From: an uncultured Pelagibacteraceae bacterium
Lineage (GTDB): Bacteria; Pseudomonadota; Alphaproteobacteria; Pelagibacterales; Pelagibacteraceae
Reading direction: 5' to 3'
Length of the DNA stretch: 37,261 bases
Assembly: GCA_902569055.1 (NCBI GenBank)
Contig: CACFSU010000010.1
Span: 1-37,261 of the forward strand
The notes under the pieces were generated by a model. That model saw only the letters and a list, made by a program, of their open reading frames with translations, had not been told where the DNA came from and searched no databases. Of the stretch, positions 405 through 16,590 are shown in pieces. Numbering within the stretch: the first letter of the stretch is position 1; each line of letters starts with the position of its first letter. A program made the translations under genes and the position numbers.

Positions 405-440
405 AAAAAACCCCGGTAATAAAATTACTGGGGTTTTTTT
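405..440. terminator. Bidirectional intrinsic terminator between convergent genes
   Basis: A hairpin has arms 405-420 and about 424-438 (ACCCCGGTAAT against ATTACTGGGGT, with one G-T/C-A position), an A run on the left and a T run on the right. Transcripts from either side would therefore end in a U-tract. The right arm overlaps the stop codon and last codons of the MFS gene on the minus strand. Confidence 0.8.
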
Positions 441-1594
441 TGTAAAAAATCTGTTCTCAGAGTTGCGATAACGATGATGATTATAAAAATTATACAAATT
501 AAATTCATTGTTTTCCAGCTTGTTAAATTTAGAAATACCCCAGCAGATAAACTTGCTGCTGCTTGGACTGAGTAAACTATAAAATCATTAAAACCTTGAG
601 CTTTAAATTTTTCCTCTTCTCTATAAGATAATACCAATAAACTAGTGCCAGATATAAATAAAAAATTCCAACCAAATCCTAAAAATATTAAAGATATTAA
701 ATAATTTATAAAATTTTGATCAAATAAACTAGTTACAATTGTTACTGAAAACAATACAGCTCCAACATGCATTATCTTACTATGTCCATATTTTTTTATT
801 AAATTTCCAGTAATCAATGATGGTAAAAACATTGCTGCAATATGCAGTTGGATTACAATACCAGTTTTAGTCAGACTTATTTTTTCCATCACATGCATAC
901 TAATTGGTGTCGCAGTCATTAAAAAAGACATAACAGCATATGCAAAAGCAGAGGCTATTAAAGCTTGAAAAAATCTTGGATTTGACAGTAATTCAAAATA
1001 AGTTCTAGTAGCTTTTTTATTAATTGTCTTTGGTTTATGATTATCATTATAAAATAATAAAAAAATTGCTGAACAAAAAGTTAATAAAGCAAGAACAATA
1101 TATGAGCCTGCATATAAATGATTTGAAATAAGTTCCTTTGAAATATTAGCTAAATTAGGCCCAATAAAAGCTGAACCAATTCCTGCTAATAATATTATTG
1201 ATATGGCTTTTGGTGCCATCTCTTTATTTACAGTTTCTACAGCTGCAAAACGATATTGATGACTAAAAGCTACTCCAGCACCAAGTAAAAAACATCCTAA
1301 ATTAAAAAAAATAAAACTTTCTATTATTATTGAGAATGAAGCTATCAATGACGCAATTGAGCTTCCAATTGAAGCAAGAATAAATCCTAATCTACGTCCA
1401 ATTATACTCATTATTTTTGCTGCAAATATTGCAAATATTGCTATTCCAACTATAGACAATGCCATTGGTAAAGTTGCTAAAGATTTTGTAGGAGCAAATT
1501 TGCCACCTATAATTCCACTTAAAAAAACTGTGACTGGCGCAGCAGTAAAGGCAAAAATCTGACTTAAAATCAGCAGCCAAAGATTTTTATTCAT
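425..1594 (-). CDS. Major facilitator superfamily transporter
   Basis: A 389-residue integral membrane protein with about 12 hydrophobic segments, the size and pattern of an MFS secondary transporter of the inner membrane. The A-like motif in the loop after the second segment (IIGRRLGFI, about residues 64-72) fits the family. It is the last gene of the proC-like/liv operon. Its ATG overlaps by one base the stop of a 22-codon ORF upstream, which suggests translational coupling. The C-terminus is basic and short (KKPQ). The substrate is unknown; being in an operon with an amino-acid importer makes a drug- or metabolite-efflux role possible, but nothing in the sequence decides it. Confidence 0.85.
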   Translation of the reverse strand: MNKNLWLLILSQIFAFTAAPVTVFLSGIIGGKFAPTKSLATLPMALSIVGIAIFAIFAAKIMSIIGRRLGFILASIGSSIASLIASFSIIIESFIFFNLGCFLLGAGVAFSHQYRFAAVETVNKEMAPKAISIILLAGIGSAFIGPNLANISKELISNHLYAGSYIVLALLTFCSAIFLLFYNDNHKPKTINKKATRTYFELLSNPRFFQALIASAFAYAVMSFLMTATPISMHVMEKISLTKTGIVIQLHIAAMFLPSLITGNLIKKYGHSKIMHVGAVLFSVTIVTSLFDQNFINYLISLIFLGFGWNFLFISGTSLLVLSYREEEKFKAQGFNDFIVYSVQAAASLSAGVFLNLTSWKTMNLICIIFIIIIVIATLRTDFLQKKPQ

Positions 1595-1662
1595 TAAAAC
1601 ATGTACTTATCTGCCATGTACATAAACCAAGCTATGGCGGCTCCTAAAATAATATATTTCAT
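1594..1662 (-). CDS. Small hydrophobic protein, 22 aa (candidate)
   Basis: A 22-codon ORF (begins MKYIILGAAI, ends ADKYMF) fills the only gap between livM and the MFS gene. It starts 7 bases after the livM stop, and its TAA overlaps the MFS ATG as TAATG. It would be one hydrophobic membrane-spanning segment (YIILGAAIAWFMYM) with a short polar tail. No Shine-Dalgarno is visible, as with many genes here. The exact fit between its neighbours argues for real translation, either as a small membrane protein or as a coupling peptide for the MFS gene. Its function is unknown and its reality is inferred only from spacing. Confidence 0.5.
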   Translation of the reverse strand: MKYIILGAAIAWFMYMADKYMF

Positions 1663-1669
1663 ATTAGTA

Positions 1670-3040
1670 TTATTTTATTTCTATTTTTTCTGGAAGTATA
1701 CCTTTTGGTCTATACCTCATAATCAAAAGTAAACCTATTCCCATCATTAAAAACCTAAAATATGGAACACTCTCTATTAAATGAACTTTTAAAAAATGAC
1801 TATTATCTAAACCAGCAGTTATTAAATTAACCAAATATAATCCTATAGGAGCTGCTTCAATCCATAAAAACCAAACGACAAAACCTCCTAGAATTGCACC
1901 AAAATTATTTCCACTTCCACCTACAATAACCATTACCCAAATTAAAAAAGTATATCTCATTGGTCTGTAACTTCCTGGAGTAAATAATCCATCTTGAGTT
2001 ACTAACATAGCACCAGCTATTCCAACTATTGCTGACCCTAATACAAAAATTAACAAATGCTGTTTTACTACATTTTTTCCCATAGCATTGGCAGCTTCTT
2101 CATTGTCTCTAATAGCTCTCATCATTCTTCCCCAAGGAGAGTAAAGAGCTTTTTGAGTTAAAATTAAAAGAATAATTACAACAACTAAAAATAGTCCTGA
2201 ATAACAAAGTTTAACAAACACTGATGATCCTTCAATTACAAATTGATTTAAAGCTGCCTGTCTCTCAGATAAATCAGAGATCAAATTCAATTTACTTAAA
2301 TTAAACTTTTCCACTAAATTTATAAACCAATCAGTTTGTTGTAAATTTACCTCATAAGGTGCAGGACGTTTTAAACCAATTACATTTTTAACACCTCTAG
2401 TCAACCAATCTTCATGTTTTATAATTGCTATAACAATTTCTGATATTAACAATGTGGCTATCGCTAAATAATCTGCTCTTAAACCCAAAGCTACTTTTCC
2501 GATTATAAATGCTAATCCTCCCGCAAATAATGCTCCAACTATCCAAGAAAAAATAATTGGAAGACCAAAACCACCTAAAAAACCAGTTTTTGCAGGATTT
2601 ACAGATTCAATTGCTTCAATGCCAGGCTCAGCTGTAAATCTAATAATTACAATTCCTAAAATTATAATTGCTGCTATAGAGTATGTTCTTATTTTAGATT
2701 TTTTATATTTTTTTAAAATATACTTTACGGCTAACACCATTATTATAATAAAGAACAAACTCATTAGAATATTAAAACCTCCTTCACTCCAGGCTTCCTG
2801 TACTGGATCAACAGAAATTAAAACAGCAGCCAAGCCTCCAAGAGCTGTGTAACCCATTATACCAAAGTTTATGAGGCCAGCATAACCCCATTGAATATTG
2901 GCTCCCATAGTCATAACAGCCGAAATCAAACAAAGATTAAATATTGATAGAGCAATATTCCAGGACTGAAATATTCCAACAAGAATAATTAATCCCATCA
3001 TAATACTGTAAGCAGCTATTACATTTAAATTTTTTCTCAT
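1670..3040 (-). CDS. livM: Liv-type ABC transporter permease, LivM-like
   Basis: A 456-residue inner-membrane permease of the branched-chain amino acid/amide ABC family. Multiple hydrophobic segments are present, and the family signature appears as GLRADYLAIATLLISEI (about residues 185-201), the cytoplasmic coupling loop WGRMMRAIRDNEEAANAMG, and the C-terminal RYRPKGILPE. It is longer than most LivM proteins because of extra loops near residues 110-160 and 215-275. It pairs with the LivH-like permease upstream, whose stop overlaps its ATG by 4 bases, and with the LivG and LivF ATPases. The imported solute is unknown; an amino acid or amide is likely from the family. Confidence 0.9.
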   Translation of the reverse strand: MRKNLNVIAAYSIMMGLIILVGIFQSWNIALSIFNLCLISAVMTMGANIQWGYAGLINFGIMGYTALGGLAAVLISVDPVQEAWSEGGFNILMSLFFIIIMVLAVKYILKKYKKSKIRTYSIAAIIILGIVIIRFTAEPGIEAIESVNPAKTGFLGGFGLPIIFSWIVGALFAGGLAFIIGKVALGLRADYLAIATLLISEIVIAIIKHEDWLTRGVKNVIGLKRPAPYEVNLQQTDWFINLVEKFNLSKLNLISDLSERQAALNQFVIEGSSVFVKLCYSGLFLVVVIILLILTQKALYSPWGRMMRAIRDNEEAANAMGKNVVKQHLLIFVLGSAIVGIAGAMLVTQDGLFTPGSYRPMRYTFLIWVMVIVGGSGNNFGAILGGFVVWFLWIEAAPIGLYLVNLITAGLDNSHFLKVHLIESVPYFRFLMMGIGLLLIMRYRPKGILPEKIEIK

Positions 3041-4047
3041 AATATTTTTCCTTTGAAAATACCAGAAGGTCTATACAACAGTACAATAACTAATATTGAG
3101 AATGACACAGCAAATTTATAATCTGTTGAAAGTAGTTGAATCAATCCTTCAGGTTCCATGCTTTCAGGTAAAATGTACATAAAAAATTTCTTATAAGCAT
3201 AAGTTAAAAGTATTTCTGAAAAAGCAATCACATATCCACCTAAAAAAGCTCCAAATGGATTTCCAATTCCACCGACTATAGCTGCAGCAAATATAGGAAG
3301 CATATTATTAAAATAAGTAAAAGGTTTAAAACTTTTATCTAAACCATATAAAGCACCTCCTATAGTTGCCAAAATGGCTGCTATAATCCAAGTAATCATA
3401 ACTATTTTTTTTGGATCAATTCCAGAGAGTAATGCCAAATCTTCATTATCTGAATAAGCTCTCATACTTTTTCCGGTTCTTGTTTTATTTAGAAACCAAA
3501 AAAGAGTTGATACAAGGATCAATGTAACTATGATGGTAATAACTTGAGTGGATTTTATTGCAAGACCTTCATTTAAACCTGTTATTTCTTTAAATTCGCC
3601 TGCTCTAATTAAAAATTTTTCTCCATCAAAGAATCTTCTGTCAGAAGGCCCAATTATAATTCTCACAACTGCTTGAGTAACAAACATTACTCCAATGCTT
3701 ACCATTGCTAATTGAACTGGAGGACTTTTGTTAACTCTATAATATTTAAAAACAAACTTATCTATTAATAACATATAACTAGCCATAAATATGATGGCAA
3801 AGGGAATAGCTAAAAGAGCAGTGGGTAAAAAACCTAGACTTATTCCTAGAGATTGAAAATACCAAGTAAATAAAATCGTAACCATGGTTCCAAAAGACAT
3901 CATGTCTCCTGTTGCAAAGTTTGCAAATCTCAAAATTCCATAAATCAAAGTTACAAAAATTGCACCGAGTGCTAATTGAGATCCGTAAGCTAAAGCAGGT
4001 ATAAAAATATAATTTAATAAAAGTATAATAGCATTTATAAAATCCAT
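3037..4047 (-). CDS. livH: Liv-type ABC transporter permease, LivH-like
   Basis: A 336-residue inner-membrane permease. Family marks are GAIFVTLIYGILRFANFATGD near the N-terminus, the cytoplasmic loop RTGKSMRAYSDNEDLALLSGID, and AAAIVGGIGNPFGAFLGG in the second half. I chose the ATG at 4047, which leaves one base after the livF stop. A GTG three codons upstream (4056) would overlap livF by 8 bases and adds nothing recognisable. It forms the permease pair with the LivM-like protein downstream (4-base overlap). Substrate inferred only at family level. Confidence 0.9.
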   Translation of the reverse strand: MDFINAIILLLNYIFIPALAYGSQLALGAIFVTLIYGILRFANFATGDMMSFGTMVTILFTWYFQSLGISLGFLPTALLAIPFAIIFMASYMLLIDKFVFKYYRVNKSPPVQLAMVSIGVMFVTQAVVRIIIGPSDRRFFDGEKFLIRAGEFKEITGLNEGLAIKSTQVITIIVTLILVSTLFWFLNKTRTGKSMRAYSDNEDLALLSGIDPKKIVMITWIIAAILATIGGALYGLDKSFKPFTYFNNMLPIFAAAIVGGIGNPFGAFLGGYVIAFSEILLTYAYKKFFMYILPESMEPEGLIQLLSTDYKFAVSFSILVIVLLYRPSGIFKGKIL

Positions 4048-4048
4048 A

Positions 4049-4756
4049 TTACCCACCTAAAAATGAACTTCTGACTCTTGGATCATTTAATAATTCTTTT
4101 CCAGTGCCAGAGTAACGGTTTTCTCCTGTAACCAAAACATAGCCTCTATCTGAAATATTTAATGCCTGTTTTGCATTTTGTTCTACCATTAGAATAGCTA
4201 CATTAGTTTTTTTAACTTTAATTATATGATCAAATAATTCATCCATTACGATAGGAGAGACTCCTGCGGTTGGTTCATCTAACATTAAAACAGAAGGTTT
4301 AATCATTAATGCTCTACCTAATGCCACTTGCTGTCTTTGTCCTCCTGATAATTCACCAACTAATTGATCTTTTTTTTCTTTTAAAATTGGAAATAAATTA
4401 TAAATTTCTTCAATTACTGCTTTGTAATCACTATTAATTAAAAATGCTCCAATTTCTAAATTTTCTTTAACTGTCATGCCCGCAAAAACATTTTTATTTT
4501 GTGGAACAAAAGAAATACCTTCTTTAACTCTATCTTGAGGAGATAGGTGTGAAATATTTTTTCCATCAATAATTACCGAGCCAGATTTTAAATTTAGTAA
4601 ACCTAGCATAGCTTTCATAGCAGTTGATTTTCCAGCCCCATTAGGTCCAAGAATAGAAACTATTTCACCTCTATCTACATTTACTGAACATGAATTAATA
4701 ATATCAGGACCTTTTCCATATCCACCTGTCATATTATTTCCTTCAAAAAAAGCCAT
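4049..4756 (-). CDS. livF: Liv-type ABC transporter ATPase, LivF-like
   Basis: A 235-residue ATP-binding subunit, the usual LivF length. The Walker A motif GPNGAGKS is at residues 37-44, the ABC signature LSGGQRQQ starts at 134, and Walker B ends in LMLDEP with D158-E159. The switch His of many ABC proteins is replaced by Gln (MVEQNAKQAL), which is normal for LivF. It lies one base after livG and abuts livH, within a five-gene importer operon headed by the proC-like gene. It hydrolyses ATP at the inner membrane as a LivG/LivF heterodimer. Confidence 0.9.
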   Translation of the reverse strand: MAFFEGNNMTGGYGKGPDIINSCSVNVDRGEIVSILGPNGAGKSTAMKAMLGLLNLKSGSVIIDGKNISHLSPQDRVKEGISFVPQNKNVFAGMTVKENLEIGAFLINSDYKAVIEEIYNLFPILKEKKDQLVGELSGGQRQQVALGRALMIKPSVLMLDEPTAGVSPIVMDELFDHIIKVKKTNVAILMVEQNAKQALNISDRGYVLVTGENRYSGTGKELLNDPRVRSSFLGG

Positions 4757-4757
4757 A

Positions 4758-5543
4758 TTAATTATTACTCAATTTTGATCCTCTTCCTAAATAACTTTCA
4801 ATAACTTTTTCATCTTTTTTTGCTTCCTCAACTGAACCTTCAAAGAGAACAGAGCCTTCAGCCATAACAATCACTGGATCACATAATCTTCCTATAAAAT
4901 CCATATCATGTTCAATCATACAAAAAGTATAACCTTTTTCTTTATTAAGTTTTTCTATAGCAGTACCAAGATCTTTAAGTAAAGTTCTGTTCACCCCGGC
5001 TCCTACTTCATCTAATAAAACTAATTTAGCATTAACCATCATTGTACGACCTAATTCCAATAATTTTTTTTGACCACCAGATAAATTCCCTGCTAGTTCA
5101 TTTTTCAAGTGACTTAAATTAAGAAATTCAGCCACCTCAAGTGCTTTTTCTTTAATTTGTTTTTCTTCTTTTGAAATTAATGAAGACTTAAATAATGCAT
5201 TCATTATTTTTTCTCCGGATTGATTACCAGGAACCATCATCAAATTTTCTAAAACAGATAAGTTTGTAAACTCATGTGCAATTTGAAAGGTTCTAAGCAA
5301 ACCTTTAGAAAATAATTCATAAGAAGGAACGTCAGTAATATCTTCATTGTTAAAAATAACACTTCCTGCTGAACATTTTAAATTTCCTGCAATTAAATTA
5401 AACAAAGTTGTTTTTCCTGATCCATTTGGACCAATAATGCCTGTAATAGTTCCTTTTTTAACTTGAAGAGAGCATTCTGAAACAGCAGCCAATCCTCCAA
5501 AATATTTTGATAAATTATTAATTTCTAAGATGTTATCAGACAT
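4758..5543 (-). CDS. livG: Liv-type ABC transporter ATPase, LivG-like
   Basis: A 261-residue ATP-binding subunit with Walker A GPNGSGKT (38-45), signature LSGGQ (154-158) and Walker B LVLLDEV (D178-E179), followed by the switch His in CMIEHDMDFI. The C-terminal segment VIESYLGRG is the usual LivG ending. It starts 3 bases after the proC-like gene and ends one base before livF, so the genes are almost certainly co-transcribed. The two ATPases energise one importer. Confidence 0.9.
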   Translation of the reverse strand: MSDNILEINNLSKYFGGLAAVSECSLQVKKGTITGIIGPNGSGKTTLFNLIAGNLKCSAGSVIFNNEDITDVPSYELFSKGLLRTFQIAHEFTNLSVLENLMMVPGNQSGEKIMNALFKSSLISKEEKQIKEKALEVAEFLNLSHLKNELAGNLSGGQKKLLELGRTMMVNAKLVLLDEVGAGVNRTLLKDLGTAIEKLNKEKGYTFCMIEHDMDFIGRLCDPVIVMAEGSVLFEGSVEEAKKDEKVIESYLGRGSKLSNN

Positions 5544-5546
5544 TAA

Positions 5547-6314
5547 TTATCTGTTTAATCTTTTGTGGATAATATTTAAAGTATTAATTATAGATTTATA
5601 GATACCTTTTTTTTTCATTTCTTTTAATCCTTGTTCGTTTAATCCTTTTGGTGTTTGAGACTCTTTTACCAAATATTTTAATTCTTTTTTTGAATTTATA
5701 ACTGCATCTTCTGATAAAGCTAAAAATAATGAGGTAATATATTTCTGTGCCTCTGACCTTTTTATACCTTTATTAACTAACCATTCACTCATTATTTTTA
5801 ATATTTCATAATAAGAAGCCATCATTCCTGATATTGACCAAAAATTTATTGACGATTTTTCATTCTTAATTTCAATCGTTGTTCCAATTTTATTAAAAAA
5901 ATTTTTTACTTTTTTATTTGGTGGACAAATAGGAACTGGTCCTTTTTTTAAAGATATTGGAGGTAATGGTATCGCTCTTACTATTTTTGCTTTTACTTTA
6001 ATTGCTTTTTTTAATTGAGATAAAGTTAAAGTAGAAATAAAACTGATTATGGTTTGATTATATTTAAATTTGAGTTTTTTAATAATTTTTTTTCCAACTA
6101 TTGGTGTAATTGACAAAAAAATCCAATTACAATTATTCACTATTTCTTGATTATTTTTAGCAACTACAACTTTATTAAATTTTTTTTTTAAGTTAGCTGC
6201 AATTATTTTATTACGCGGTGAAATCCAAATTTTAGTATACGATATTTTTGAATTGCAAATGCCTGTTACTACTGATGAGGCGATTTTTCCTGTTCCAATA
6301 AAACCGATTTTCAT
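5547..6314 (-). CDS. Divergent pyrroline-5-carboxylate reductase-like (ProC family) protein
   Basis: The N-terminus MKIGFIGTGKIASSVVTGI is a Rossmann dinucleotide-binding motif, and the layout (255 residues, NAD(P)-binding half plus helical dimerisation half) matches ProC, which reduces cyclic imines such as pyrroline-5-carboxylate to proline. It is a diverged member. The usual RAMPNTPA region reads RAIPLPP, the SGSGPAY segment reads SGMMASYYE, and the PGGTT active-site loop reads TPKGLN. It is very lysine-rich. It heads the liv operon and has a promoter placed for an almost leaderless transcript. A cyclic-imine reductase acting on the imported solute is a reasonable guess; an unrelated NAD(P)H imine reductase activity is equally possible. 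Confidence 0.7.
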   Translation of the reverse strand: MKIGFIGTGKIASSVVTGICNSKISYTKIWISPRNKIIAANLKKKFNKVVVAKNNQEIVNNCNWIFLSITPIVGKKIIKKLKFKYNQTIISFISTLTLSQLKKAIKVKAKIVRAIPLPPISLKKGPVPICPPNKKVKNFFNKIGTTIEIKNEKSSINFWSISGMMASYYEILKIMSEWLVNKGIKRSEAQKYITSLFLALSEDAVINSKKELKYLVKESQTPKGLNEQGLKEMKKKGIYKSIINTLNIIHKRLNR

Positions 6315-15819: not shown

Positions 15820-16590
15820 TTATTTAATTGAAATGGTTACAACAGGTTCCATTGGTTCAAAGTTACACAGATTTGTTGTACCAATTTCAGTAGCTTGTAC
15901 TGCGCTAGAAGTTCCAAATGATATATCTATAGTTGGAGCTATTAATGCAACAGTATAAGGTGACTGCAATTTATAAACTAGAACATGATCAGAATCTGTA
16001 GACCCGTCAGCATGTTGTGTTTGATATGTTGAAGAACCTGTTCCTTGTGAGTAAGTTATTGTTACATCATCAGAAGTTGAAGAACAATCAGCAGCTGTAC
16101 AAATTGAAGCTTGATCATTTATTAAATAAGTAGTCATATCTGCTAAAGTTTGATTAGGATTCATTGCAGGTCTATGAGTATGTATTTCATTTCCTGCTGC
16201 AGCGTGACCTCCAGGGTAACCAGAAGTTTCTGCATAAGTTTGACAGTCTGTTGCTATACCTGCAACTGAAATATCAGCTCGAATAGTAAATTTTCTACTT
16301 ATAGTTACTCTCATATGTGTGTAAGTCGTACCTAATGGTAACAAGGCTACATCACCATATGTAGCAGCCTCCGCCCCTGCATCCACAGAAGCAATATCAA
16401 TTTCTTGTTCTCTATCTGCTAATACTACCGAACCTTCACAATTGTCTACTCCTGTACTGCTTTCACAGAGTTCAACTTTTTTCATTGTAACTTTATAAAC
16501 TGTAGCAGCCCCAGTCTCCGCATCAAGATTGGAATTAATGCTTAAAAATAAAAATATACTAAAAAAAAATTTTATTAATTTAATTTTCAT
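15820..16590 (-). CDS. Secreted protein of unknown function, partner of the inverse-autotransporter barrel
   Basis: A 256-residue exported protein I cannot assign to a family. A signal peptide covers about residues 1-24 (ends NLDA). The mature part is rich in Thr, Ser, Ala and Asp, beta-strand-like throughout, with six cysteines (42, 51, 116, 164, 169, 242) that could form three disulfides, and a His-containing stretch EIHTHRP near 135-141. The segment LLPLGTTYTHMRVTISRKF vaguely recalls DUF4382-like beta-sandwiches, which is weak evidence. Its ATG overlaps the stop of the barrel gene by one base (TAATG), so the two are translated together. Its stop lies directly against the grxC stop, on the opposite strand. 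It may be a surface or periplasmic passenger working with the barrel protein (inference). Confidence 0.65.
   Translation of the reverse strand: MKIKLIKFFFSIFLFLSINSNLDAETGAATVYKVTMKKVELCESSTGVDNCEGSVVLADREQEIDIASVDAGAEAATYGDVALLPLGTTYTHMRVTISRKFTIRADISVAGIATDCQTYAETSGYPGGHAAAGNEIHTHRPAMNPNQTLADMTTYLINDQASICTAADCSSTSDDVTITYSQGTGSSTYQTQHADGSTDSDHVLVYKLQSPYTVALIAPTIDISFGTSSAVQATEIGTTNLCNFEPMEPVVTISIK

Follow-up and report, generated by a model that had tools for sequence, protein, structure and literature searches.

A conserved 22-codon gene of Pelagibacteraceae (SAR11) predicted to encode a one-helix membrane protein

The small ORF and its surroundings

The DNA analysed here (the window) is a stretch of 37,261 nucleotides, contig C10 of an uncultured Pelagibacteraceae bacterium whose 957-kb genome is incomplete (75% complete). 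On its minus strand a proC-like gene is followed by two ABC ATPase genes, a livH-like gene and livM, and the small ORF that is the subject of this study lies between livM and a gene for an MFS transporter (Table 1). The earlier note on this DNA had described a 22-codon ORF that begins 7 bases after livM and whose stop codon overlaps the MFS start as TAATG; we confirmed both the coordinates and the junction, a 1-nt overlap in which the final A of the TAA is common to both codons. The same junction was said to be used by other genes of the window, and it was indeed found at four further gene pairs (positions 16590, 12248, 10047 and 9262). No clear Shine-Dalgarno sequence could be seen by eye in the 7-nt spacer, and we infer that translation of the small ORF is coupled to that of livM across it. 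On the other side of the MFS gene, a hairpin and T run (411-441, by eye) between the convergent ends of that gene and a binding-protein-like gene (2-391) looks like a shared terminator.

Table 1. Features of the window around the small ORF.
Feature	Position	Strand	Remarks
proC-like	5547-6314	-	
ABC ATPase, livG/livF-like	4758-5543	-	name is our reading beyond the Pfam domain
ABC ATPase, livG/livF-like	4049-4756	-	name is our reading beyond the Pfam domain
livH-like	3037-4056	-	name is our reading beyond the Pfam domains
livM, branched-chain amino acid ABC permease (PF02653)	1670..3040	-	upstream host gene in g1, the window's genus
spacer, 7 nt, livM stop to small ORF	1663..1669	-	read from the sequence
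small ORF, 22 codons (22 aa), MKYIILGAAIAWFMYMADKYMF	1594..1662	-	ATG start, TAA stop; predicted single membrane helix; GxxxA at residues 7-11; YxxDKY core at residues 15-20
MFS transporter (PF07690)	425..1594	-	start codon overlaps the small ORF stop (TAATG)

The peptide had been described as hydrophobic with a polar tail. Its GRAVY value of 0.96 and its best 15-residue mean hydropathy of 1.81, from residue 3, agree with this, but the tail is short, consisting of D18-K19-Y20 followed by M-F. The usual gene-calling limits (about 90 nt for Prodigal) exceed the length of a 22-codon gene, which annotation pipelines may therefore miss, as the earlier note expected. Among the papers covered by a literature search, none joins SAR11 or Pelagibacter with microprotein, smORF or small-membrane-protein terms. 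The excerpted text of PMC2704228 describes RNA motifs, one of them near rhtB, proC and livM, and does not mention the small ORF; that of PMC6429828 reports that the intergenic regions of the SAR11 strain HIMB5 hold at least three sORFs, one of which could belong to the family described here. The GMSC catalogue covers global metagenomes and calls ORFs as short as 30 nt (PMC11364881), and copies of the peptide may therefore lie there unnamed; neither Pelagibacter nor SAR11 occurs in the main text of that paper.

Conservation behind livM and selection on the reading frame

LivM orthologues (E <= 1e-100) were found in 81 of the 197 sampled genomes of the family, 47 of them in g1, and in 42 of these 47 a homologue of 22-23 aa lies directly behind livM. 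The same holds for 80/80 of the best 80 of 516 named livM records, which may share genomes with the 47 orthologues; these closest named relatives by LivM come from single cells and metagenome bins of Pelagibacteraceae, two of which carry the label Candidatus Pelagibacter ubique. Together the 122 copies encode 28 distinct peptides. ATG is the start codon in every copy, at a distance from the livM stop that runs from 4 nt inside to 8 nt past it; the copies are intact by construction, since the search demanded an intact ORF as well as the pattern Y..DKY. Frameshifts or stops in close relatives had been named in the earlier note as what would refute the ORF. The ORF passed this check: the five g1 livM loci that lack it, inspected one by one, hold no remnant at the junction. 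In G188 the livM locus stops at the contig edge, in G127, G152 and G166 LysE-like genes (so called by likeness to the Pfam-checked LysE of genus g14) lie directly behind livM, and in G083 a thioredoxin-like gene (PF00085; L126, 1379-1741) stands where the small ORF would be, with livM on one side and the MFS gene on the other; profile search detects no copy of the peptide anywhere else in that genome.

We simulated 200,000 random 75-nt spacers with the dinucleotide make-up of the window. Of these, 2.5% contained an ATG ORF that began early and spanned at least 18 aa, and 0.28% contained one whose stop also overlaps the next ATG. The position of the small ORF is thus by itself just moderately improbable (about 0.3%), and conservation is the deciding evidence. 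The selection analysis used the first 22 codons of 95 distinct DNA sequences from behind livM, encoding 27 peptides, with one insertion-bearing peptide excluded. In the frame of the small ORF pS was 0.535 and pN 0.117, a pN/pS of 0.22, whereas the two other same-strand frames gave 1.06 and 1.78 and hold stops in 95/95 and 87/95 sequences. Variability averaged 0.10, 0.05 and 0.25 at the first, second and third codon positions; third positions hold 62% of it, a share not reached in any of 20,000 permutations. Ratios of the same order were obtained in four other genera, namely 0.17 in g2 (15 sequences), 0.23 in g4 (35), 0.23 in g5 (10) and 0.19 in g12 (6), so that pN/pS lies at 0.17-0.23 in each of five genera. 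Purifying selection was seen in one frame only, which is the mark of a protein-coding gene, and the conserved peptide with synonymous-biased substitutions that the earlier note proposed to look for in relatives is there. On frame-specific purifying selection and the random-spacer simulation together we reject a chance ORF. These comparisons support the small ORF as a real conserved gene of SAR11, whose product is predicted to be a small membrane protein.

Only a minority of relatives have a detected MFS gene near the small ORF. Of the 122 loci with the peptide behind livM, 22 show an MFS homologue, and the fetched stretches of the other 100, some of them short, show none; on this ground we reject a peptide linked to MFS. 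Within g1 the gene may be present behind the small ORF (as in L054) or absent (as in L101). Those g1 loci of the sampled genomes (as opposed to the named records) that lack it show no same-strand ORF above 69 aa whose start falls within 150 nt of livM; in L265 the small ORF is followed after 51 nt by a convergent gene. In all 18 aligned loci that have both genes (window included) the small ORF stop and the MFS start overlap by 1 nt, as TAATG or TGATG, as if the MFS gene had been inserted exactly at the stop codon. This constant overlap is what would be expected if the small ORF were a coupling or leader peptide whose product is irrelevant and whose role is to control how the next gene (MFS in the window) is translated. 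We regard that explanation as highly improbable, since purifying selection acts on the amino acid sequence, and since in the loci without a detected MFS gene the downstream genes differ or none is seen nearby.

Distribution and gene neighbourhoods across genera

A profile built from 29 of the peptides was run on the 197 family genomes with a cut-off of E <= 0.001. It matched in 130 of them, in 6 of 14 genera: 45 of 51 genomes in g1, and 47 genomes in g4, 22 in g2, 9 in g5, 6 in g12 and one in g14. All 130 matches were at 1e-9 or better and nothing scored between 1e-9 and 1e-3. (A less good profile gave 146/197, a tally inflated by chance matches inside long frames and by weak ones, E 0.01-0.05, in g3, g9 and g11.) The peptide was found in 67 of the 77 genomes of good quality (at least 90% complete, at most 5% contaminated). 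No profile match was obtained in g3, g6-g11 and g13, nor in the other 10 good-quality genomes, and the peptide is thus dispensable or diverged there. Of 297 genomes sampled at order level, 190 matched at E <= 0.01, all of them belonging to this family (f1). Among the 385 genomes of a class-wide sample, the family genomes G000, G003 and G017 matched and two family genomes of g9 did not; the one match outside the family was weak (E 0.004) and fell within a 266-aa frame, and we therefore discard homologues elsewhere in the class.

The gene is present as a single copy in 129 of the 130 genomes. The exception, G053, has two copies about 1 kb apart (L257, about 1870-2950), one of which lacks an in-frame ATG, GTG or TTG start. 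These copy numbers bear on whether the peptide is a small hydrophobic toxin-like product (type I toxin or holin-like) or the remnant of a mobile or phage gene, as its small size, its hydrophobicity and the genus-specific location of its gene might suggest. Such an origin is quite improbable given the near-universal single copy and the viral contigs, which gave no match with two patterns that, as positive controls, do match cellular loci; on the same search we reject a virus-borne gene.

The neighbourhoods were read at 72 loci, a chosen subset of the profile hits, with patterns that demanded G7 and DKY and restricted residue 15; the peptide was recovered in 72/72. In g4 all 36 loci have it behind a MazG-like/PRA-PH gene, with start/stop overlap in 35, and in g2 all 16 have it behind an NlpC/P60-like gene with one conserved end, 247 aa and full-length in most. 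In both genera one member of the host family was identified by Pfam and the others by the matching protein end. The six g12 loci place it 5-18 nt ahead of an AEC-type transporter gene, the single g14 genome between an Old-Yellow-Enzyme-like (OYE) gene and a LysE gene, and in g5 its location varies. A side observation in g5 is a gene for an 88-aa hydrophobic protein that follows the peptide gene, with a 4-nt overlap or short gap, in 5 of 10 cases (L264:2174-2437, and also L257, L268, L269 and L347); the L264 copy matches no Pfam family. Even in g1 the arrangement is not fixed. In three g1 genomes the peptide gene is not next to livM, and in one of these it lies 11 nt ahead of a DUF4396 gene; a fourth g1 locus fetched, that of G078, has it behind livM. 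In G127 and G152 the 80 nt upstream and the 60 nt downstream are free of same-strand genes; these copies stand alone, and coupling to a host gene is consequently not universal.

The peptide could be a small subunit dedicated to the Liv ABC transporter, packing on LivM in the way that KdpF packs on the Kdp pump, and the g1 loci and named records, with the gene so regularly behind livM, speak for this. So do the three genomes in which livM and the peptide gene are separated and both retained, and the four g1 genomes without livM (E <= 1e-100), which also lack the peptide. That joint absence fits a Liv role there, and may equally be one deletion, because the two genes adjoin in g1. Outside g1, however, the association fails: a livM-trailing copy was found in 0 of 34 livM loci (one at a contig edge and one with 62 nt beyond livM), and 45 of the 47 peptide-bearing g4 genomes lack livM at E <= 1e-100, a cut-off that leaves out more distant Liv permeases (the two with livM are G102 and G110). 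Co-occurrence and co-location with livM thus hold in g1 and not across the family. On the g4 genomes without livM at this cut-off and the other hosts elsewhere we reject a LivM-only subunit as the general function, and a Liv subunit in any form seems doubtful to us. Of the livM-MFS junction implied in the earlier note, the livM side stands for g1 and the MFS side for a minority of the loci, and in the other genera the gene has other sites. No constant neighbour exists among the 72 loci. Genus-specific sites and a g4 mostly without livM at that cut-off indicate that livM is a host and not a necessary partner, and the retention of the peptide sequence beside different genes across genera suggests that its role is probably not tied to either neighbour.

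Peptide anatomy and proposed function

Across loci the peptide is 22-35 aa long, with a best 15-residue mean hydropathy of 1.6-2.3 in five examples; by hydropathy and length it is predicted to be, like AcrZ, a hydrophobic single helix of less than about 50 aa. The 195 peptides yielded 92 distinct 20-residue cores, which we compared. G7, Y15, D18, K19 and Y20 are constant, an invariance that is partly by construction because the search patterns required or restricted these residues. Position 11 is occupied by G or A (one S), position 3 by W or Y, and position 22 by F in 87. The core reads GxxxG/A…YxxDKY, of which GxxxG/A is a classical helix-packing motif. Residues 7, 11, 15, 18 and 22 would share one side of a helix. 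The helical conservation moment, as a test of such a conserved face, was not significant over three ranges (permutation p 0.11, 0.09 and 0.19), and docking through it is accordingly only a conjecture.

None of the 29 members scanned against Pfam and NCBIfam matched at E <= 0.001, and no solved structure matched the peptide significantly. The best Pfam value was 0.018, for PetM, in one member (NCBIfam PetM, E 0.016); CedA2 appeared in three members (best E 0.0025, NCBIfam) and Pfam KdpF in one (E 0.13). The likeness to CedA2 and to small subunits of the PetM/cytochrome b6f type consists of these weak profile matches, which a single hydrophobic helix would explain, and no gene of the PetM/cytochrome b6f or CedA2 systems was recognised among the Pfam-examined neighbours. 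A structural subunit of a separately encoded core complex, respiratory or secretory, would account for a mostly single-copy gene in six genera whatever its neighbours. We hold it to be unlikely, as the peptide was not found in other genera of the family that are assumed to share the same core complexes, and as the single-member PetM and KdpF matches are not significant among 29 scanned.

Very small membrane proteins that act on larger ones offer a closer comparison. CydX is one of these; the KdpF and CydX genes lie in the operon of their partner, whereas the SAR11 peptide gene has no constant neighbour, and AcrZ is encoded away from its partner. KdpF, CydX and MgtS resemble the SAR11 peptide in being very small membrane proteins, its membrane location being predicted. 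In E. coli the small transmembrane protein AcrZ (49 aa) binds a large transporter and modulates it, and KdpF (PMC7267776 for both) and the 31-aa MgtS (cited in PMC7267776) likewise act, as very small membrane proteins, on larger ones. The likeness of the peptide to AcrZ, both being of the small transmembrane type (by prediction in the case of the peptide), is one of description; AcrZ has double the length, and the protein it acts on is known.

Both the anatomy of the peptide and the absence of any constant neighbour are what one would expect of an accessory helix that binds a larger, separately encoded membrane protein and tunes it. We think it probable that the peptide is an independent membrane protein with one helix, conserved in Pelagibacteraceae (SAR11) and predicted to act as an accessory helix on an unlinked membrane protein. 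The gene is conserved, under purifying selection, mostly single-copy and set in a genus-specific context; its translation, membrane insertion, docking and regulation of a partner are what we infer from these features. In most loci read, the gene is packed against a same-strand host gene, behind it or just before it; in g1, with livM as the usual host, the Liv permease and the peptide would be produced together. The helix would insert into the inner membrane, where the small residues G7 and G/A11 could allow it to pack on a helix of a larger, separately encoded membrane protein, with the conserved Y15 and D18-K19-Y20 anchoring it at the membrane edge. It may then stabilise or tune this partner, as AcrZ does AcrB. 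Rhodopsin, present in 150 of the 197 genomes, was rejected as the partner, its occurrence not tracking that of the peptide: rhodopsin occurs without the peptide in G006, G007, G009, G010 and G013 (g6, g7, g9, g10 and g13) and in G051, G083, G093, G131 and G164, and the peptide without rhodopsin in G018, G033, G075, G097 and G140. More tentatively, the peptide may be an unnamed lineage-specific microprotein that changed host operon between genera while kept in single copy and strongly conserved, and that regulates a membrane system of wide importance in SAR11.

We file the SAR11 peptide as an unnamed addition to the small one-helix membrane proteins. Its case also illustrates that operon neighbours can mislead, since the status of livM as a mere host is visible solely by comparison outside g1. 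The peptide motif provides a handle for proteomic or ribosome-profiling searches. SAR11 genomes are regarded as among the most stripped-down of free-living cells, and selection that has kept a gene of 22 codons in most of the genomes sampled from several such genera points to a real function. On the more tentative reading above, the peptide would be among the smallest conserved bacterial membrane proteins, in some of the ocean's most abundant cells.
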